Shown piece by piece: positions 2,995 through 13,194 of a stretch of DNA of 46,279 nt (position 1 is its first letter; every line of letters begins with the position of its first letter). The stretch lies in assembly GCA_002690945.1 (NCBI GenBank), contig NZGL01000007.1, positions 43,624 to 89,902 on the forward strand, in the 5' to 3' direction. The position numbers were made by a program, and so were the translations under genes. The notes below the pieces were generated by a model. It was not told where the DNA came from. It searched no databases and saw only the letters and a list, made by a program, of their open reading frames with translations. Origin of the DNA: Gammaproteobacteria bacterium (GTDB taxonomy: Bacteria; Pseudomonadota; Gammaproteobacteria; Magnimaribacterales; TMED112).

Positions 2995-4797
2995 ATGAGT
3001 TTAAGAATAACCATTTTTCTCTCATTTTTATTAATTGGATGTGGTGGTTCAAGCTCAAATGATGAAAATAGCTCTGATCAAGCACTATTAACAATAAATG
3101 TCACTAATTTTCCATCTAGTGTAAAAAGCTATAAGCCAGTAAATATAAGTATTACAGCTAACTATGACTGTTCATTCATTCTAGAAAGTGAAGACATTTA
3201 TTGGGTTTCAACTAATGACAACAAAAATTTCTCTTATAGAGCACCTATCACTCTAATGAATGAGGCAGAGTTTGATGTGCAGATTAGTTCAATTCAGACT
3301 GCTTACTGCCCACAAGGATCAATTAGTTTGACCCACACAGTTACAAGAGACGAAGATAATCTTAGGCATATTCCCACACCATTTCCCTACAATAACTCAA
3401 CCTTAAAAACAGAGTATTTTGCCTCACATAATTTGGGTTTTGGTGGAATTGAATTTACTGATAGATTTACGGCAACTATCTGCTACCCAACACCTAATGA
3501 TTGTGAAACTTTAGAAAATGCTTTATTTGGCCAAGATGCTCATAATATGGCAACTGGAGACTTTAATGGAGATGGTTTTGAGGATATTGTTGTGGCTTGG
3601 GCACTCTTCCCTCACACCATAGAAATTGAGCAAAAAGTCCATGCCCCAGTGCACATTTATTTGAATGATGGCAATGGCAATTTATATGAAGATAATTCAG
3701 TCTATTATTCGAACGAAGCACCTACGCATCCAGCTCCATATAGACTTGCTATTGCTGATTTTAATAGTGATGGTATTGATGACATATTTGTTGGCTCAAT
3801 GGGACTCCAGTATCGCGACCCAGACTCCACTAATGATTTTATTCTGCCCTACCCTGATCTACTTCTATTAAGCGACTCATCCGGCAGATTTAGCGATGCT
3901 TCAGCAAATATTGATGATCAAAATAATGGCAATGGCAAAATTTGTGGGTTTAGTCATGACGCTAGTACTGGAGACTTCGATAATGATGGCGATTATGATC
4001 TTTTCGCATGCAATTTGTTGTTAGTTAACGACGGCGTAGGTAATTTTGTCATTCATGAAGACCTCGATTTTAATTTGCAACAAGCCTACGGAAATCCTAT
4101 GAGCAGTTTAATCGTCGATTTAAATAACGATGATTATGATGATCTTGTCTTCTGGAATTTTGATAATCGTCCTAATAGCATACCTGAAGAGGGTTTTGCG
4201 CTCGTCAGTGATGGTACAGCTATTATAAATAACTGGACTTTAGTTGAATTGCCAGAAGGTCCTTTTGGTAGAAATCACAATAAGTTTAATCATGCTGCAT
4301 GGGGGGATTTAAATAACGATGGTAATAATGATGTAGTCGTTGGTATTACCAGAGATTTGCCTTATTACGAGGGTGCTTATGTGCAGGTCTTAATAGGAGA
4401 CGGAAACGGCAATCTTATCGATGTGACAGACACTAATTTCAATGCTCAACCACGTCAAGCAACACACCATGGTGAAAGTAATATCTACTTGAGAGATTTT
4501 GATAATGATGGCGATCTAGATATTTTTCACTCTACTAGAGATTTTGCATCTAATTTGCATGGCTCACACATAGCTTTAAATGATGGAAATGCAAGCTTCG
4601 TAACCATTTCAGAGGCCAGATTACCGCAAAAACCGAAAGCAAACGAATGGGACAATAATTCCTACTTATTTAAGGGCATGCCAATAAACCTTGATAATCA
4701 TGGCTGTTTAGATCTTATTTCAACTTCTGATAGTTGGATGGATGCCAGTGCAACCAGAAATTATTTGTATTCATTAATTAATTTAAAATGCGACTAG
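2995..4797 (+). CDS. FG-GAP/VCBS-repeat lipoprotein, second of a tandem pair
   Basis: A 600-residue predicted lipoprotein with the lipobox LIGC (Cys16) followed by a Gly/Ser/Asp/Asn linker. At least six calcium-loop motifs of the FG-GAP/VCBS type are visible: DFNGDGFED (near residue 189), DFNSDGIDD, DFDNDGDYD, DLNNDDYDD, DLNNDGNND and DFDNDGDLD. The spacing is that of a beta-propeller. Its signal peptide shares the core LRITIFLSF with the upstream gene, and the DNA there is identical over GAATAACCATTTTTCT, so the two look like a tandem duplication. The second copy has more intact repeats. It ends two bases before the facing nqrM stop, with no terminator between. Likely outer-membrane or periplasmic; substrate unknown. 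Confidence 0.87.
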   Translation: MSLRITIFLSFLLIGCGGSSSNDENSSDQALLTINVTNFPSSVKSYKPVNISITANYDCSFILESEDIYWVSTNDNKNFSYRAPITLMNEAEFDVQISSIQTAYCPQGSISLTHTVTRDEDNLRHIPTPFPYNNSTLKTEYFASHNLGFGGIEFTDRFTATICYPTPNDCETLENALFGQDAHNMATGDFNGDGFEDIVVAWALFPHTIEIEQKVHAPVHIYLNDGNGNLYEDNSVYYSNEAPTHPAPYRLAIADFNSDGIDDIFVGSMGLQYRDPDSTNDFILPYPDLLLLSDSSGRFSDASANIDDQNNGNGKICGFSHDASTGDFDNDGDYDLFACNLLLVNDGVGNFVIHEDLDFNLQQAYGNPMSSLIVDLNNDDYDDLVFWNFDNRPNSIPEEGFALVSDGTAIINNWTLVELPEGPFGRNHNKFNHAAWGDLNNDGNNDVVVGITRDLPYYEGAYVQVLIGDGNGNLIDVTDTNFNAQPRQATHHGESNIYLRDFDNDGDLDIFHSTRDFASNLHGSHIALNDGNASFVTISEARLPQKPKANEWDNNSYLFKGMPINLDNHGCLDLISTSDSWMDASATRNYLYSLINLKCD

Positions 4798-4799
4798 AT

Positions 4800-4958
4800 T
4801 TAGTCTTTGACTTTGCCACAAACTTGGCAAGCATCACCTTTTGAGAGGTAAATACCGCCACAACTAGGTTGAAGAGGCTTATTTCTTAGAATAAGTCCAA
4901 TAGACATACCTGCTATCGCTAAAGCAGCTACTATTAATCCTAGGATTGCATTGGTCAT
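4800..4958 (-). CDS. nqrM: NqrM, Na+-NQR maturation factor (DUF539), 52 residues
   Basis: NqrM is a small membrane protein needed to mature NQR, thought to help deliver iron to the Cys site shared by NqrD and NqrE. The frame begins at ATG 4958, nine bases after the apbE stop, and ends with TAA at 4802-4800. It has one membrane helix (about residues 4-24), a basic NK step, then SCGG (Cys33) and a C-terminal CxxC (Cys44, Cys47). The single helix followed by CGG and a distal Cys cluster is the family pattern, and a position after apbE is usual for it. Only three cysteines are present where family members I recall have four. It shares the nqr transcript and converges on the FG-GAP gene. Confidence 0.85.
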   Translation of the reverse strand: MTNAILGLIVAALAIAGMSIGLILRNKPLQPSCGGIYLSKGDACQVCGKVKD

Positions 4959-4967
4959 AACTTTATT

Positions 4968-5942
4968 TTACTCAATTTGCTCTTTAATTTCCTCTAATAT
5001 CTGTTCTGGATTAAAGGTTTTTAAAGCCCACATTGTAGATTCAATGGTTTTTCCATCTTCTTTTATGAACAATACCGCTAAACCTTGTCTTTCAGCTGCT
5101 TTAAGACCTTGATCTGCACCTAAAACATACATTGCAGTTGCCCAAGCATCTGCTTCTGTAGTGTTATTAGCAATTACTGTAACTGAAGCAACATCTTTAC
5201 GACCGTCACCCCAAATATGGCCTGGATTTCTATATTCGCCTGATGTTGCTATTGAGATCCCGCCTTCTGGTGCTTTAAATGCCCTGTAGGCTTCTGAAGT
5301 AAAGTCAAAAGGGTTGTTAATACCCCAAGTCCAAGAGCTGCCAAATTTTGTACCATTTATGCTTATTTCACCACCAATCTCTACAAAATAATCTGTAATG
5401 CCAAGCTTGACCAGAAGTTCACTTATTTTGTCTACCGCATATCCTTTGCCTACAGCAGAAAAATCTAAGCAAACTGATTGGGGACAATAAAAGTCAACAT
5501 TTTCAGATAGAGCAACTGGATTAAAAGCATCATTACTATTCTCTTTTATATGATGCGATAAATAAAAAAGATAATCGAACTCATCAGATGTACAAGATCT
5601 ATTCCACACAGAAAACTCTTGTTTTAACCACCAAGGATCCATTTGATCTGTCATCAATTTCAGAGCATACTCAACGCACATTGAATTGTTATTAATAATA
5701 CTTATCAAAGAGTTTTCTTTGTAAGTTGAAAAAACCATATCGATTCTATTTAACTCTGTTTCCACTAGCTCTTTAATTTTTTCTTTATCTACATCTTTAG
5801 TGAATTGGACTGAATAAGTGGTGCCGTAAATTGGCCCTTCAATAACTTGAACTTTTTCTTCAATAACTTGAACTTTTTCTTGCGAGCATCCAGCAAGCAG
5901 AAGAACAATAAGTAAAGTTGAGAGTCTAGATACCAAAGTCAT
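4968..5942 (-). CDS. apbE: ApbE, FAD:protein FMN transferase lipoprotein
   Basis: ApbE transfers FMN from FAD onto a threonine of NqrB and NqrC, acting on the outer face of the inner membrane. The 324-residue protein has a signal peptide with lipobox LAGC. Family landmarks are [11 protein letters not shown] (flavin binding), [12 protein letters not shown], and [15 protein letters not shown] near the C-terminus, the Mg2+-binding and core ApbE segment. Its first 17 bases overlap the nqrF 3' end, which argues for translational coupling, and nqrM follows nine bases later. A 21-base in-frame duplication (5838-5879) doubles EKVQVIE just after the lipidated Cys, in a linker where it should be harmless. 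Both acceptor motifs are present in the NqrB and NqrC encoded upstream. Confidence 0.96.
5838..5879. repeat. 21-base tandem duplication inside apbE
   Basis: Two perfect adjacent copies of a 21-base unit lie at 5838-5858 and 5859-5879. They encode EKVQVIE twice in the linker between the ApbE lipidation site and the catalytic domain. The perfect identity suggests a recent slippage duplication. Confidence 0.95.
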
Positions 5943-7167
5943 CGAGCATTATGTTTTCTTCTTCTACTCCAAGATCGCTTAGCATTTTTATGCAAGATGA
6001 GTTCATCATTGGTGGTCCACAAAGATAAAACTCGCAGTCTTCTGGAGCAGGATGTTTTGACAGATATTCATCTTCTGTTACTTGATGAATGAAACCAGTT
6101 AAACCATCCCAATTATCTTCCGGCAAAGCATCCGATAGGGCTATATGGAAGCTAAAATTTTCATTGTCTCTAGCAAGTTTTTCAAACTCCTCTTGATAGA
6201 AGATTTCTTTCATACTTCTAGCGCCATACCAGAAAGAAATTTTTCTATTGGTATTTATTCTTAGCAGTTGATCAAAGATGTGAGATCGCATTGGCGCCAT
6301 ACCTGCACCTCCACCAATAAACACCATTTCATTATCGGTTTCACGAGCAAAGAATTCGCCAAAAGGACCAAAGACTTTTACCTTATCACCAGGCTTTAGA
6401 TTGAAAACATAAGAGGACATTATGCCCGGAGGGAAGTCTGTTCCTGGAGGCGGAGAAGCCACTCTTACATTGAACTTTAACACGCCCTCTTCTAGCGGAA
6501 AGTTAGCCATGGAATATGCTCTTATGATTGGTTCAGAGTTGCTTGCAACGTTATCCCAAATCTTAAATCTATTCCAATCATCGTGGTATTCTTCAGCAAT
6601 ATTGAAATCTTTATAATCGACAGCTTCGAAAGCTGGAGCTTCAAGTTGCACATAACCACCAGCCTTAAATTTTACCTTCTTCCCTTTAGGTAATTTAAGG
6701 ACAAGCTCTTTAATAAAAGTAGCTACATTATCATTAGAAACTACTTCGCATTCCCACTCCTCAACACCAAAAACTTCCTCAGGTATCTGGATTTTCATAT
6801 CTCTTTTTACTGGAACCTGACAAGACAAACGCCAGTTATCATTTTGTTGTTTGTAATTAAAATGTGAGGTCTCTGTAGGCAATATAGAACCACCTCCGTC
6901 TACCACCTGGCATTTACATTCAGAACAAGTTCCTCCTCCTCCACAAGCGGAAGCAAGGTAGATATTCTGTGATGCAAGTGTACTTAAAAGTTTGTCTCCA
7001 GTTGGCACGGTAATGGTCTTGTTTGGATCTCCATTTATCTCAATATTGACATTCCCACTAGGAATCAATCTAGACCTAGCAAACATTACAAAAGCTACCA
7101 AGAAACTCACAATTAAAGTGAAGGCAGCTATACCCAAATATAGGTCAGTTATATCTGTATTTAACAT
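5926..7167 (-). CDS. nqrF: Na+-NQR subunit F, NADH dehydrogenase module
   Basis: NqrF oxidises NADH and passes electrons through FAD and a [2Fe-2S] cluster into the pump. The 413-residue protein has one N-terminal membrane helix (about 8-30), then a ferredoxin domain with Cys75, Cys81, Cys84 and Cys116. It continues with a ferredoxin-reductase FAD motif RAYS (216-219), an NADH-binding loop GGGAGMAP (285-292) and a C-terminal CGPPMM segment. The cysteine spacing matches other NqrF proteins. The ATG at 7167 overlaps the nqrE stop by one base (TAATG), and a GGAGGAA Shine-Dalgarno stands upstream. The length is normal and no key residue is missing. Confidence 0.99.
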
Positions 7168-7775
7168 TAGAGTAATATTCCTCCGAACGACATAAATCCA
7201 AAACTCATAAGTCCAACAATAATGAAAGTTATACCAAGGCCTCTTAAGCCTTCAGGTATATCACTGTATTTAAGTTTTTCTCTTATTCCTGCAAGCAAGA
7301 CTATGGCTAAAGCCCACCCTACTCCGGCAGCTAAACCATAAGTAACACTCTCTACAAAGTTATAGTTCTTTTCTACCATAAATAAAGAGGCACCAAGTAT
7401 GGCGCAGTTTACTGTTATCAGAGGTAGGAATATGCCAAGCTGGTTATAGAGTACCGGTACGTATTTATCCAAGAACATTTCAAGCACTTGCACAGCTGCA
7501 GCAATGACACCAATGTAGGTAATTAACTCAACAAATTCTAGGTTAGATTCTGGAAGTCCTGCCCAAGCTAAGGCCCCCTCTTTTAACACATAAGTGTAGA
7601 TAAGATTATTAAGCGGCACAGTTAATGTCAGCACTACAATGACAGCAATACCTAAACCAAAGGCAGCTTTCACTTGCTTGGAAATAGCAAAGAAAGTACA
7701 CATACCTAAGAAGAGCGATAGAGCTATATTCTCAATAAAAACTGTCTTAACAAACAGACTCATTAGATCAGCCAT
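7167..7775 (-). CDS. nqrE: Na+-NQR subunit E, integral membrane
   Basis: NqrE is a six-helix membrane subunit that with NqrD holds an iron centre in the middle of the membrane. The sequence is hydrophobic throughout, has the family start [16 protein letters not shown], and carries a Cys in [11 protein letters not shown], where the NqrD/E half-site cysteine is expected. I set the start at ATG 7775 because a GGAGG lies six bases upstream; an adjacent TTG at 7778 would add one residue. This gives 202 residues, close to the usual 198. It overlaps the end of nqrD by eight bases and nqrF by one, in the standard nqr order. Confidence 0.98.
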
Positions 7776-8448
7776 CAACAGCCTCCTTCTTTACCGTTAA
7801 AGGTTTAAATGTGTGAGCTTTAAGTGGGTTATCATTTTCTTCAACTTGGCTTGTGCTATAGGTTCTAATTGCCCAAATCATTAGACCAATAATAATGAAT
7901 GAACTTGGCGGCAAGAGTAGAAAATTATTAACCGGATACCATGATGGCATCACTGGAATACCAAAGAACTCACCAGCACCGAACACCTCTCTGATGAAAG
8001 CGACAACTATCAAAATAAAGCTATAGCCAAAGCCATTACCAAGACCATCCAAAAAACTTCTAATAGGTGGATTTTTCATGGCGTAAGCCTCAGCTCTACC
8101 CATAACAATACAATTAGTTATTATCAACCCAACAAAGACTGATAATTGCTTACTAATTTCGTAAACATAGGCTTTTAAAACTTCATCAACAATAATTACC
8201 AAAGAGGAAATTATCGTCATTTGAACGATAATTCTAATATTGTCAGGAATGTAATGTCTGATAATCGAAACAAAGAAGTTTGAAAAGGCTACTACCGTTG
8301 TTAAGGCAGCACACATAACTAGAGTGACATCCATTTTCACAGTAACTGCCAAAGCCGAACAAATACCAAGAATTTGAAGCGCAATAGGATTATTTTCCAC
8401 TATCGGATCAAAGAGTAATTTACGTGCTTCTTTACCGGTTAATTTCAT
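7768..8448 (-). CDS. nqrD: Na+-NQR subunit D, integral membrane
   Basis: NqrD is the membrane partner of NqrE in the sodium pump. The 226-residue protein has about six hydrophobic helices and the family segment [24 protein letters not shown] near the N-terminus (about residues 12-35). A Cys lies in the equivalent [13 protein letters not shown] stretch, matching the half-site in NqrE. A hydrophilic C-terminal tail of about 30 residues ends the protein. The ATG at 8448 overlaps the nqrC stop through ATGA. The length is slightly above the usual 210 or so because of that tail. No sequence feature looks abnormal. Confidence 0.98.
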
Positions 8449-9185
8449 GAATTCTTAACATGCTCCTTTATTTTTTTTAAGGCTGGTCCATAAGCCTCAT
8501 CTCCAAGCCAATAATTTATCATGTTGGATACTCCATTACTCGTTAATGTAGCCCCAGATAAACCATCAATCTGATATTCATCTTTTGCAGCACCTTTCAC
8601 AACTCTAAGTTCAACACCACCATTTTGGTTGTAGATTAATTTGCCCTTCCAGATAGCTTTCCAACCATCATTTTCTACTTCACCACCTAATCCTGGGGTC
8701 TCCTTATGGTCATAAAATTCAATGCCGTTTACAGAATTTAGATCTGAACCTAGAGACAAATAACCATATAAAGTTCCCCATAATCCATAACCTCTTATGG
8801 GCAGCACCACCCTCTCCACTTCTTTATTTTCATCCACCCAGACATAGATAGGACCTACATTCTCTCTACGTTTTAGAATAGCGATGTCTTTGTCTTTTGG
8901 TACTATCTCAGACAAATCTGACTTTAGAACAGCTTTCAAATGATCGTATTTTTCATCCACTGAAACAAATTCATTTGATCTAAAATCAACATAAAGTGTC
9001 GTAATTTTTTTAAACTCATTTTCAACTTCATCTTCAGTGAATTCAATTCCCGCTGCTGAAATAATTTTGTTTTTCTTTTCATTTTCAACATTCGCTATTT
9101 GCTCCGATCTTACAGTTACAGCAGTAATAGAAACAACGACGGCACAGGCAATACAAACTAATAGAGGAATTATTAAATTTCTCAT
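8445..9185 (-). CDS. nqrC: Na+-NQR subunit C, covalent FMN subunit
   Basis: NqrC carries a covalently bound FMN in a periplasmic domain anchored by one helix (about residues 3-24). The FMN acceptor motif is DGLSGAT at 207-213, so Thr213 should be the flavinylated residue, modified by the ApbE encoded four genes downstream. The fold landmarks [12 protein letters not shown] (about 132-143) and [10 protein letters not shown] (about 160-169) are present. The 246-residue length is typical. ATGA overlaps link it to nqrB upstream and nqrD downstream. Confidence 0.99.
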
Positions 9186-10393
9186 GAATTGTACCTCTGC
9201 ATTCTCTTGCTTGTTTGTCTAGAAGTGACAGCAAAATCTATTGCTGGGGCAAGTAAATTTGCAAACAGAATTGCTAACATCATGCCTTCTGGAAATGCAG
9301 GATTTACCACTCTTATAAGAACAGCAATCACCCCGATTGATAAACCATAAATCCATCTACCCTTATTAGTGCTTGCAGCAGTGACAGGTTCAGTTGCCAT
9401 AAAGATCATGCCAAAAGCAAAACCACCAATAGTTAGATGCCAATACCATGGAACGCTAAACATAGGATTTGTCTCAGATCCAACAAAGTTCAAGAAAGCA
9501 CTCATAGCTATCATGCCAATCATAGTGCCAAAAATAATCCTCCAGGAAGCGATTTTGCTATAAACCAAATAGGCACCAGAGAGAAGAATTAAAAATGTTG
9601 AGGTTTCACCTATAGAGCCTGGTATATGACCAAAGAAAGATTGCCCCCATGTAAAGTTAGAGCTTATTCCAGCCATACCTTCTGCAGCTCCTATTCCTAG
9701 GGCTGTAGCACCGGAATAACCATCAATTGCACCATTGTCCACTAAACCAGAAATCCAGACCATGTCACCCGATAATTCAGTTGGATAAGCAAAATATATA
9801 AAAGCTCTTCCCGTTAATGCTGGATTAAGGAAATTCTTTCCAGTGCCGCCGAAAAGTTCCTTACCAACAACAATACCAAAAGCTATTCCAGTTGCCGCTT
9901 GCCAAAGTGGTATATCTGGCGGACAACTCAGTGAAAACAATACAGTTGAAACAAAAGCACCCTCATTTATTTCATGCCTTCTTATGGTGGCAAATATTGC
10001 CTCACAGGCGATTCCAACCACAAAAACAGTTGCGTATATAGGAATGAAGTAAACCATTCCAAACCAAAATCTATGAAAATGATTGTTTACATCGGTGCCA
10101 ACTAATTGGACCAGCCAATTATGCCAATCTCCAGTGGAGGAAAAACCCCCTGTATCTAGGTAATCTAGACCCCAGAACCCCATGTTATACATACCCCAAA
10201 ACATGGCAGGAAATGTAGCCAACCAAACGACTACCATGACCCTTTGAACATCTAATCTATCTCTGATATGTGTTTTTCCTGTAGTAGCTACTTTGGTAGA
10301 AAAAAAGAAGTTTTGCACTACCTCATAGAGATAGAAATACCTGTTTTCTTTTGAAGGTCTATTTTTATCGAAAAATTTCTCTAAAAACTTCAT
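9182..10393 (-). CDS. nqrB: Na+-NQR subunit B, covalent FMN and ion channel subunit
   Basis: NqrB is the large membrane subunit that binds FMN covalently and is thought to carry sodium. I set the start at ATG 10393 (403 residues, MKFLEKFFDK) rather than an in-frame ATG 33 bases upstream. The chosen ATG overlaps the nqrA stop as ATGA, is preceded by a purine-rich GGAAGGAAGAGG, and matches family N-termini. The FMN acceptor motif DGYSGAT lies at 224-230 (Thr230). About ten hydrophobic segments and the NPALTGRAF stretch (190-198) fit the family. It sits between nqrA and nqrC in the standard order. Confidence 0.98.
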   Translation of the reverse strand: MKFLEKFFDKNRPSKENRYFYLYEVVQNFFFSTKVATTGKTHIRDRLDVQRVMVVVWLATFPAMFWGMYNMGFWGLDYLDTGGFSSTGDWHNWLVQLVGTDVNNHFHRFWFGMVYFIPIYATVFVVGIACEAIFATIRRHEINEGAFVSTVLFSLSCPPDIPLWQAATGIAFGIVVGKELFGGTGKNFLNPALTGRAFIYFAYPTELSGDMVWISGLVDNGAIDGYSGATALGIGAAEGMAGISSNFTWGQSFFGHIPGSIGETSTFLILLSGAYLVYSKIASWRIIFGTMIGMIAMSAFLNFVGSETNPMFSVPWYWHLTIGGFAFGMIFMATEPVTAASTNKGRWIYGLSIGVIAVLIRVVNPAFPEGMMLAILFANLLAPAIDFAVTSRQTSKRMQRYNS

Positions 10394-11721
10394 GATGCCT
10401 CTTCCTTCCAAATCATTTCCATACAATTATTAAATAGGGCCACATAATCATATTTACTAGGGCAAACATAAGAAAATATAGCCATATCTTCTGCCACTAG
10501 ATCAAAGATGCCTAATTCTCTTAAGGCCACTAAGTCCCCTATTGCTAGGGATTTTAAAAATAGTGTTGGATCTATATCAAATGGATTAACTTCATCAAAT
10601 ACTCCGATGGGAACAATTGCTCTATACCCACCATTAATATTCGTATCAAATGAGAATTTTTTTGGCTTCAAAATACTTGAAAAAAACACATTCGAATTAC
10701 TGTGATCCTTAAGACCAAACTTTAACCAATTAAAAAAGGTAGATTTTGCTTCATCAGATACCAAAGATAATTGATTTGAATATCTTCCTAAAAAATCTGA
10801 ATAGCTATCACCATGGCTACCATATAAGAGGCTACCAGACACTCTTCTAGAGTTATCAGTTGAATTACCAGCAGAAAGCTCCTCTAGGCTTGCACCAGGT
10901 ACAGTTTTGACCAATTTAGGCTCAATACATGCCGGACCGCAAACACTAACGTATTTTTCATAGCAAAGCTTCCCTGTATTCATAACTTTGCCTATTCTTA
11001 AGACATCTTGCCAGTCTATTGTCCAAGTTTTTTCGCTTTTTCTCATTGGGCGAATGTGTTGTATATGTAAAGAGCTATTCCCAGATGGAAATTTGCCTTC
11101 AATGATGCGTTGACTTAAATCAAATTTATGAAAATAGCCAAAAGGTAGATATTTTGAACCACATAAAACTATTTTTTGGGTGCTTATTTTTTGTATTGTT
11201 TCAATGCCTTTAATGAAGTCATCGAGATTGTTTATTATCAGATCTGTTGGTTCAAGTTCTAAAATATCTGATCTACAAGCATTTATGAAGACCTGATCAG
11301 GTATTGATTCTATTTCAGGCACCCTATTGAAGGGCCTTTCTCTGAAACTATCCCATAAACCAGCAGAAATTAAATCTTTTGAAACGTTGCCTGTTCTTCG
11401 AAATGTAACAAGCTCTTCACTTGCATTTTTATCGTTTTCTAAGATTACTGATACAAGAGCTCTTTTCTCTCCTCTATTAATAGAGCTAACAGTGCCACTA
11501 ATTGGGGACTTAACAGAAAACCCTGGATTTGTTTTATCTTCAAAGATAGGATCTCCTTTAGTGACAGAATCACCCTCTTTGACTAGAAATTTAGGCTTTA
11601 AAGAGAAATAGTCGTCAGCAAGAATTCCAATAAATTTAGGAACAATATGATCGAATTCTTTATTCTTTACCGAGCCATGAAGAGGTATTTTAAGACCTCC
11701 CCTCACTTTAATTTTTTTCAT
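10390..11721 (-). CDS. nqrA: Na+-NQR subunit A
   Basis: NqrA is the peripheral cytoplasmic subunit associated with NqrB and with quinone or inhibitor binding. The 443-residue product opens with the family sequence MKKIKVRGGLKIPLHG. It also has the N-terminal DYFSLKPKFLVKEGDSVTKG barrel segment with the SPISGTVSSINRGEKRA motif (about residues 74-90). The start ATG at 11721 abuts the last base of the GAPDH stop codon, with no intergenic base, so its ribosome site lies inside the GAPDH gene and no separate nqr promoter is evident. It overlaps nqrB by four bases. Confidence 0.98.
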   Translation of the reverse strand: MKKIKVRGGLKIPLHGSVKNKEFDHIVPKFIGILADDYFSLKPKFLVKEGDSVTKGDPIFEDKTNPGFSVKSPISGTVSSINRGEKRALVSVILENDKNASEELVTFRRTGNVSKDLISAGLWDSFRERPFNRVPEIESIPDQVFINACRSDILELEPTDLIINNLDDFIKGIETIQKISTQKIVLCGSKYLPFGYFHKFDLSQRIIEGKFPSGNSSLHIQHIRPMRKSEKTWTIDWQDVLRIGKVMNTGKLCYEKYVSVCGPACIEPKLVKTVPGASLEELSAGNSTDNSRRVSGSLLYGSHGDSYSDFLGRYSNQLSLVSDEAKSTFFNWLKFGLKDHSNSNVFFSSILKPKKFSFDTNINGGYRAIVPIGVFDEVNPFDIDPTLFLKSLAIGDLVALRELGIFDLVAEDMAIFSYVCPSKYDYVALFNNCMEMIWKEEAS

Positions 11722-13194
11722 TTACTGTTTCGGGTATCTAACTAAATTAATACCAAGTGCTTTATTTAAAAGCCTTGCAACTTGCCTGGAATAACCATAC
11801 TCATTATCGTACCAGCAGTAAATAGTTATGTTGTTAAAATTGCTAATTGTTGCCTGAGAATCGAAAACACAAGCAAATTCATTACTATAAAAATCAGAAG
11901 AAACTGCATCTAAAGAATTAGAATAATCAATTGTAGTTCTTAAACCTGAATGAAAAGCAGCATTTCTAAAGCATTGATTTAAATCTTCAACAGAAACACC
12001 CTTTTTTACATTTAGGTGCATGATAGCCAAACTCACATTAGGTGTTGGCACTCTGATAGCATTAGCTGTAAGTTTTCCTTTAAGTTCAGGCATAACCCCA
12101 GAAATTGCCTTTGCTGCTCCTGTGTCTGTGATAACAAGATTTAATGCAGCACTTCTACCCCTTCTATCAGATGTATGATAGTTATCGATCAAATTCTGAT
12201 CGTTTGTATATGCGTGCACGGTCTCAATATGACCACTTAAAATTTTAAAATTATCATCGACAACTTTTAGAGCTGGGACAATGGCATTAGTGGTGCAAGA
12301 TGCAGCTCCTAGAATTTTATCGCCTTCGCTGACCTTTTGATCATTTACACCGTATACAATATTTTTAATTTTCCCTTTTCCTGGCGCAGTAAGAACAACT
12401 CGTTCAACAGATGGATTTTTAATATGCATCTTTAGTCCATCTTCATCTCTCCAAACGCCTGTATTATCAATTACAGTGGCTTTCTTGATTCCGTGCTTTT
12501 TGTAATCTACTTTTTTTGGATCATTGGCATAAATAAATACAATTTCGTTACCATTAACAATCAAAGAATTGTTCTTTCTATCCACTCTGATTGTTCCAGG
12601 AAATGTGCCATGGACACTATCATTTCTTAGCAAACTTGCTCTTTTGATTAAATCTTCTGTATTGCCCGAATCTCGTACAACTACCGCTCTTAGGCGCCAA
12701 TTTACTCCAGGACCAGTTTCACTGACCAGGATTCTAGTTAAGATTCTCCCAATTCTCCCAAAGCCATATAAAACTATATCTTTAGGTCTTAATGGGTGAG
12801 ATCTTTTAGTTCTAACCTGTTCTTTAAGCATACTTTTAACATGCTTTATGGGATCCAATTTATCGTTATCTAAAAGATGAACAACAACCTCTCCTAGGTC
12901 AATTTCACATGGCATTAATTTCATTTTTGAGATTTGTTCAATTACAGGGTAAGTTTCAAGTTCACTTAACTCATTCCCTTCTACTTCACGAACAAACCGA
13001 TGAAGTTTCATTATTTCTATTGCTGAACAATTAATTAGAGGACGACCATACATCAATAATCTAATCCCATTTCGGTATAGTTTACCGATCATAGGGACCA
13101 TAGATTCAGCAAGAGCTTCTCTCCACTTCCAGTCCCCAAAATGGTCATCGACCTTTGGTCTACGTCTTTTGTCGGGATTAAATCTTTTAACCAA
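11722..13194 (-). CDS. gap: Long-form glyceraldehyde-3-phosphate dehydrogenase
   Basis: This oxidoreductase interconverts glyceraldehyde-3-phosphate and 1,3-bisphosphoglycerate with NAD(P). The catalytic domain is clear: Rossmann motif GFGRIGR (144-150), catalytic ASCTTNA with Cys300, HAYTNDQ after it, and the C-terminal WYDNEYGYSRQ. Unlike the standard enzyme of about 335 residues, it has an extra 138 or so N-terminal residues with no motif I recognise. Extended GAPDHs of this kind are known in Pseudomonas and other gammaproteobacteria. The likely start is TTG 13194, two bases after the preceding stop; its ribosome site is weak, so the start is uncertain by some residues. It is directly followed by nqrA, so NADH production and NADH oxidation are linked on one transcript. 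Confidence 0.92.
   Translation of the reverse strand: MVKRFNPDKRRRPKVDDHFGDWKWREALAESMVPMIGKLYRNGIRLLMYGRPLINCSAIEIMKLHRFVREVEGNELSELETYPVIEQISKMKLMPCEIDLGEVVVHLLDNDKLDPIKHVKSMLKEQVRTKRSHPLRPKDIVLYGFGRIGRILTRILVSETGPGVNWRLRAVVVRDSGNTEDLIKRASLLRNDSVHGTFPGTIRVDRKNNSLIVNGNEIVFIYANDPKKVDYKKHGIKKATVIDNTGVWRDEDGLKMHIKNPSVERVVLTAPGKGKIKNIVYGVNDQKVSEGDKILGAASCTTNAIVPALKVVDDNFKILSGHIETVHAYTNDQNLIDNYHTSDRRGRSAALNLVITDTGAAKAISGVMPELKGKLTANAIRVPTPNVSLAIMHLNVKKGVSVEDLNQCFRNAAFHSGLRTTIDYSNSLDAVSSDFYSNEFACVFDSQATISNFNNITIYCWYDNEYGYSRQVARLLNKALGINLVRYPKQ

Follow-up and report, generated by a model that had tools for sequence, protein, structure and literature searches.

Can an NqrM protein that lacks one of the four cysteines of its family still serve the Na+-NQR? 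This question is raised by a 52-codon reading frame that closes the nqr operon on a 46,279-nucleotide stretch of SAR86 DNA (the whole of which is called the window here). We know of no account of how the NqrM cysteines handle iron. If a whole lineage within an abundant group of marine bacteria makes do with three of them, this would indicate which three form the minimal set. The need for NqrM in Na+-NQR assembly in proteobacteria is reviewed in passages of PMC12174285, according to which the loading of iron into NqrD/NqrE “seems to require” NqrM; the proposal is thus in print, and PMC6209661 likewise speaks, in the passage concerned, of NqrM as “predicted to deliver Fe” to NqrD/NqrE. The window is SAR86 DNA, and very similar proteins occur in named SAR86 records. 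Its family, f1 in our numbering, is taken to be GTDB TMED112, for which PMC11582366 uses the name CHAB-I-7.

The last reading frame of the nqr operon

The original prediction described a 52-residue, three-cysteine nqrM gene ending the operon, and this description was confirmed for the frame at 4800-4958, which follows apbE and encodes exactly three cysteines (C33, C44 and C47). The features of the locus are as follows:

4800..4958, minus strand: nqrM, three-cysteine form, 52 amino acids, ATG start, TAA stop
4803..4805, minus strand: codon of the C-terminal Asp52; NqrM ends short of the position of the fourth cysteine
4818..4820, minus strand: Cys47 codon, third family cysteine (by alignment)
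4827..4829, minus strand: Cys44 codon, second family cysteine (by alignment)
4860..4862, minus strand: Cys33 codon, cysteine of the CGG motif and first of the four family cysteines
4968..5942, minus strand: apbE, FAD:protein FMN transferase (NCBIfam ApbE match)
5926..7167, minus strand: nqrF (TIGR01941)
7167..7778, minus strand: nqrE (TIGR model)
7768..8448, minus strand: nqrD (TIGR model)
8445..9185, minus strand: nqrC (TIGR01938)
9182..10426, minus strand: nqrB (TIGR01937)
10390..11721, minus strand: nqrA (TIGR01936)

The operon thus has the order nqrA-B-C-D-E-F-apbE-nqrM, with nqrM last and 9 nt behind the apbE stop, and such a place after apbE at the operon end is a feature of NqrM. The genes nqrA to nqrF exceed the cut-offs of TIGR01936 to TIGR01941, and the apbE frame matches the NCBIfam ApbE model with an E-value of 2.5e-34 and 118.7 bits, below the cut-off of 498 bits. 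The complete set of eight genes (nqrA to nqrF, apbE, nqrM) was recovered in each of the 70 SAR86 operon stretches examined. A scan for promoters and terminators near nqrM gave nothing above shuffled sequences.

On the flanks, a convergent plus-strand frame (2995-4797) ends 2 nt beyond the nqrM stop; this frame and the adjacent one at 1346-2992, also on the plus strand, are lipoprotein-like with DGNGD-type Ca-binding repeats, as judged by eye. Directly upstream of nqrA and in the same direction lies a 490-aa frame (11722-13194, minus strand) resembling glyceraldehyde-3-phosphate dehydrogenase with an N-terminal extension, likewise judged by eye.

The full nqrM product, MTNAILGLIVAALAIAGMSIGLILRNKPLQPSCGGIYLSKGDACQVCGKVKD, begins with a hydrophobic helix at about residues 3-24 (judged from the sequence, not by a prediction program), which is followed by a basic stretch, RNK, and then by the cysteine domain PSCGGIYLSKGDACQVCGKVKD. 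The single N-terminal helix and the SCGG at residues 32-35, aligned to relatives, are as in NqrM, and the cysteine pattern is C-x10-C-x2-C-stop. Eight f1 NqrMs have an extra cysteine inside the helix, which the window protein does not share.

PF04400 (NqrM/DUF539) is the sole Pfam match of the protein. The DUF539 profile, named beforehand as a check, pointed to the expected family and to no other, but the score of 15.1 bits (E 0.021) does not reach the curated gathering score of 22 bits, so that the refuting case of no DUF539 match applies by half. Because the score lies below the Pfam cut-off, family searches miss this protein, and the suspicion that the gene is easily overlooked was borne out: at that cut-off the window genome and two others (G020, G023) all come out without an NqrM match. 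This is a warning, as these genomes would be reported to lack NqrM. All 30 three-cysteine members scanned match PF04400, yet the best E-value among them is only 0.0043, and five of the eight SAR86 NqrMs scanned score above 22 bits (27.3-36.1).

A bridge to the family is provided by the four-cysteine SAR86 members, which the window protein matches with E-values from 2.6e-13 (an f3 member) to 3e-5 and through which it shares descent with above-threshold NqrMs. As the family is now drawn, by the Pfam cut-off and four cysteines, the window protein lies outside it, since it has three cysteines and the last is missing. This bridge and the operon slot nevertheless make it the NqrM orthologue, which agrees with the original assignment. 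An unrelated small, zinc-ribbon-like membrane protein could be suspected from a weak NCBIfam match to the HVO_0416 zinc finger (NF041910, 16.5 bits), but this score is far below the equivalog cut-off of 80 bits, by which the HVO_0416 identity was ruled out; given also that an unbroken series of sequences links the protein to above-threshold NqrMs of its order, which occupy the same slot in the operon, we regard this alternative as scarcely credible. Sequence searches found no solved NqrM structure. A second nqrM was not seen in any of the 106 SAR86-order genomes with a match (117 searched), each of which had a single one.

With respect to conservation, nqrM was matched at E<=0.01 and without internal stop in 38 of 41 genomes (the window genome and 40 relatives), and in 38 genomes NqrM ends in C-G-K-x-x-[DE]-stop. 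Within the genus of the window, length and C-terminus are the same in 19 of 21 genomes, its own included; the two without a match have a completeness of only 74% (G008) and 72% (G014). Since the orthologues of the genus end at the same place, nqrM contains no frameshift, and an end common to 38 genomes also rules out a truncated assembly as the cause of the short protein. The refutation that the original prediction had considered, a C-terminus altered by a frameshift, is thereby excluded.

Median dN/dS values (Nei-Gojobori) for nqrM were 0.074 in f1 (87/171 pairs usable) and, within family f4, 0.049 in genus g7 (34/36), 0.056 in g12 (9/15) and 0.015 in g4 (1/6), unusable pairs being saturated or too close. 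The three-cysteine gene is under strong purifying selection, and these low values, together with the conservation in relatives, rule out a spurious frame.

Selection of this strength, with medians of 0.015-0.074, also argues against a decaying remnant, in whose place another factor would mature the NQR or the enzyme would do without its iron centre. The sub-threshold Pfam score and the loss of the C-terminus and one ligand would fit such a remnant; however, C33, C44 and C47 are invariant in all 38 members of the three-cysteine clade described below, nqrM has been kept in a genus of small genomes (19 of 21), and the cysteines of NqrD and NqrE are in place in all operons, so that decay seems very improbable to us. 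Specifically, the NqrE cysteines in the contexts GMCTF and VNCAI and the NqrD cysteines in GICSA and TNCIV, which we take to be those of the intramembrane iron centre, are present in 70/70 SAR86 operons, and for this reason the client site in NqrD/NqrE looks unchanged.

Cysteine number within and outside SAR86

For a census within the order, we used 111 NqrMs, made up of 105 real matches from 117 genomes and those of six more f1 genomes. One further match, in G029, sits in a 559-aa frame and was discarded as chance, which leaves NqrM in 105/117 genomes. Three cysteines were found in 39 of the 111 proteins and four in the remaining 72, and the missing cysteine is always the last. Three-cysteine forms make up 19/19 of f1, 4/4 of f4 g4, 9/9 of f4 g7, 6/6 of f4 g12 and 1/7 of f3 g10; all five proteins of f4 g8 have four. 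All but one of the 39 (38, representing 33 distinct proteins) constitute an entire sequence-defined clade of f1 together with f4 g4, g7 and g12. In alignment with other SAR86 NqrMs, C33, C44 and C47 of the window fall on the first three family cysteines, and Cys33 is invariant across three NqrM alignments. The last residue of the clade is always acidic (Asp in 32, Glu in 6), as it is in 11 of the 72 four-cysteine SAR86 NqrMs. These results support the view that the three-cysteine form is a trait of a lineage, not an oddity, and that the lost cysteine is specifically the distal one.

The lone three-cysteine NqrM outside the clade comes from SAR86 AG-917-I09 (G066/L148, f3 g10). Like the window protein it has three cysteines and has lost the last one, but the tail reads CGQEGTKTDS and so still ends in KTDS, as in the four-cysteine g10 sisters (CGKEQGDCIKTDS). 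Here the cysteine has gone from inside a retained tail, whereas the window NqrM lost it by truncation. Because the end typical of the genus is kept and the cysteine is gone within the tail, the loss in G066 is an independent event.

The sample from outside SAR86, a subset of the matches, comprised 170 loci (60 further stretches included) with 154 distinct NqrM-like proteins; whether a locus belonged to SAR86 was set by record title, by kinship code or, for three MAGs, by eye. Four cysteines were counted in 151 of these proteins, five in one and three in two, and three additional loci that were read individually have four each. Four or more are thus kept by 155/157 distinct NqrMs outside SAR86, which upholds the statement that the window protein has one cysteine fewer than the family norm. 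Both three-cysteine exceptions, L375 and L377, match weakly (E 7.8e-9 and 7.9e-7), and L375 has a very short tail, CGNCSNC. The spacing of the last three cysteines varies widely outside SAR86; therefore, the number of cysteines is more constrained than their geometry.

Several variants were seen along the way. L377 (G235 contig 52, bases 1-400) has three cysteines from the CGG on and an extra one just ahead of this motif (RCLRGRCGG), which looks like the displacement of one ligand. Very short NqrM-like proteins with a compact four-cysteine geometry occur in L352-L354 and L348-L351 (same phylum, f204 and f200), in which the next cysteine follows only a few residues after the CGG (CGGLACASCGGC and similar). 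Five genomes (L355-L359, f160 g239) carry a second, divergent nqrM-like gene beside the usual one.

The history of apbE and nqrM compared with nqrA-F

The three-cysteine NqrMs of f1 and f4 are 67.4% identical, as against 41.0% between f1 and f3, and the three-cysteine f4 proteins share only 51.4% with the four-cysteine g8 of their own family. By contrast with NqrM, each of the six proteins NqrA to NqrF of the window's genus is nearer in identity to f3 than to f4. Raw ApbE identities differ little (35.3% vs 31.5%; f1 to g8 35.8%). In a tree of RpoB+RpoC, f1 groups with f3 at 100/100 and g8 stands at the base of f4, also at 100/100; the NqrA-F tree agrees in placing f1 with f3 (SH-aLRT 100, fast search). 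The RpoB+RpoC tree is in line with PMC11582366, in whose phylogenomics TMED112/CHAB-I-7 and D2472/Suzuki are sisters, f3 being D2472 by our inference.

AU tests were carried out on 25 taxa with NqrB, NqrE, NqrF, ApbE and NqrM. A grouping of f1 with three-cysteine f4 was rejected by NqrF (p 6.8e-6), NqrB (p 9.6e-55) and NqrE (p 0.031), while ApbE rejected f1 with f3 (p 0.007) and accepted a grouping of f1 with the whole of f4 (p 0.297). NqrM alone, with its 52 columns, did not reject the species topology (p 0.134). For ApbE+NqrM under LG+C20, f1 and three-cysteine f4 grouped at 100/98, and f1+f3 was rejected (p-AU 0.002). In the window's genus, apbE and nqrM thus have a common history that differs from that of nqrA-F and rpoBC, a point beyond the reach of the original prediction. 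The simplest account would be that the apbE-nqrM end of the operon moved between ancestors of f1 and f4.

Alternatively, the C-terminus could have been shortened in parallel in f1 and f4, with no transfer, and fast evolution could have drawn the ApbE sequences together artificially. This is lent some weight by G066, where the last cysteine was lost independently, although with quite a different tail, by the failure of NqrM alone to reject vertical descent and by the fast evolution of f1, whose branch measures 0.54 in the RpoB+RpoC tree and which PMC11582366, where it treats TMED112/CHAB-I-7, also describes as fast-evolving. Long-branch effects are for this last reason the main caution on the transfer: the ApbE tree could be affected by long-branch attraction, which the mixture model reduces without ruling it out. 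The case for transfer is also weakened by ApbE itself, which accepts f1 with the whole of f4 and differs little in raw identities. Against parallel shortening stand the 38 sequences themselves, which share P31 (not G) before SCGG, Y37-L38, K40-G41, V/I46, K49 and the acidic last residue, all invariant or nearly so among them; the 67% identity across families compared with 51% within f4; and the rejection of f1+f3 by ApbE+NqrM under the mixture model. On balance, we consider parallel shortening unlikely.

Proposed function and comparison with known NqrM proteins

The reading that we favour, and hold to be likely, is that of a working, divergent NqrM whose C-terminus was shortened in a SAR86 ancestor and which moved together with apbE between the ancestors of f1 and f4. 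NqrM would be a one-helix membrane protein whose cytoplasmic cysteine domain helps to supply NqrD/NqrE with iron (the [2Fe-2S] centre) as the Na+-NQR is assembled. Shortening in the SAR86 ancestor would have removed the last of the four family cysteines but left Cys33 of the CGG motif and the C-x2-C pair in place, and strong purifying selection would then have held the short form. The short nqrM and the adjacent apbE would have been transferred horizontally between the ancestors of f1 and of the three f4 genera, so that the transferred NqrM would mature two distinct NQR enzymes with vertically inherited structural genes.

The short protein would thus fill the usual role of NqrM by means of Cys33 together with the pair C44-x2-C47. 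The window protein presumably matures the NQR and carries iron, which may be bound by three thiolates or by three plus a carboxylate; three cysteines are probably enough, and NqrM can probably do without the last. It is a speculation that the C-terminal Asp/Glu substitutes for the lost thiolate, as a charge conserved for any other reason would look like an acidic ligand at this place. We are doubtful of a more ambitious version, in which apbE-nqrM would be a transferable maturation cassette with a Cys3-carboxylate carrier site at Asp/Glu52, serving two divergent, vertically inherited NQRs.

The V. harveyi NqrM reportedly has four conserved cysteines, and in the work of Kostyrko et al. (J Bacteriol, 2016), Cys33Ser is said to have abolished Na+-NQR maturation while the other cysteine mutants only lowered the yield. 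The SAR86 form fits these data, as residue 33 is retained in it and the last cysteine is absent. The locus had been put forward as a natural test of which cysteines are needed. This is only partly supported: if the reported mutants hold, it is not the first test, and the SAR86 form would be an evolutionary confirmation that the last cysteine is dispensable.

In all eight three-cysteine genomes searched (completeness 93% or higher in six), there was no match to PF00361 (complex I/antiporter), because of which NQR is probably their main NADH:quinone oxidoreductase. Among the subset of PF07992 flavoproteins that were read and judged by eye, no NDH-2 was evident; those seen were lipoamide dehydrogenase, GltD and ferredoxin-NADP reductase-like, flavin monooxygenase-like and DadA-like proteins.

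Three points make the locus of interest: a whole clade has lost a cysteine that is otherwise nearly invariant, the maturation genes were apparently transferred apart from their enzyme, and the protein goes unseen at the standard Pfam threshold. In the open-licence literature searched, we found no earlier account of a three-cysteine NqrM or of an apbE-nqrM transfer. The 52-residue protein offers biochemistry a nearly minimal maturase, and the incongruence of apbE-nqrM suggests that maturation factors are exchangeable between divergent NQR complexes; therefore, the specificity of NqrM may be loose.

Compared with the four-cysteine NqrMs of other SAR86 families (among them L023, L030 and L036), which belong to the same operon, the window NqrM is 35-53% identical over most of its length and has the C-x2-C pair in common with them, whereas they extend for several more C-terminal residues with the fourth cysteine and have GS, not PS, before the CGG. 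The NqrMs of Vibrio and other Pseudomonadota share with it a single helix at the N-terminus, a CGG motif whose cysteine is residue 33, and a cysteine pair further downstream, but most are about 57-90 residues long compared with 52. L300, which we take to be a Vibrio-like NqrM, has the pattern C-x11-C-x-C-x3-C in place of C-x10-C-x2-C-stop, and L173 (Amphritea) has C-x11-C-x2-C-x6-C, of which the window protein lacks the last cysteine and the tail. The setting is the same as in Vibrio, where nqrM also follows apbE in the operon, as stated in the passage of PMC12174285 on this gene order.
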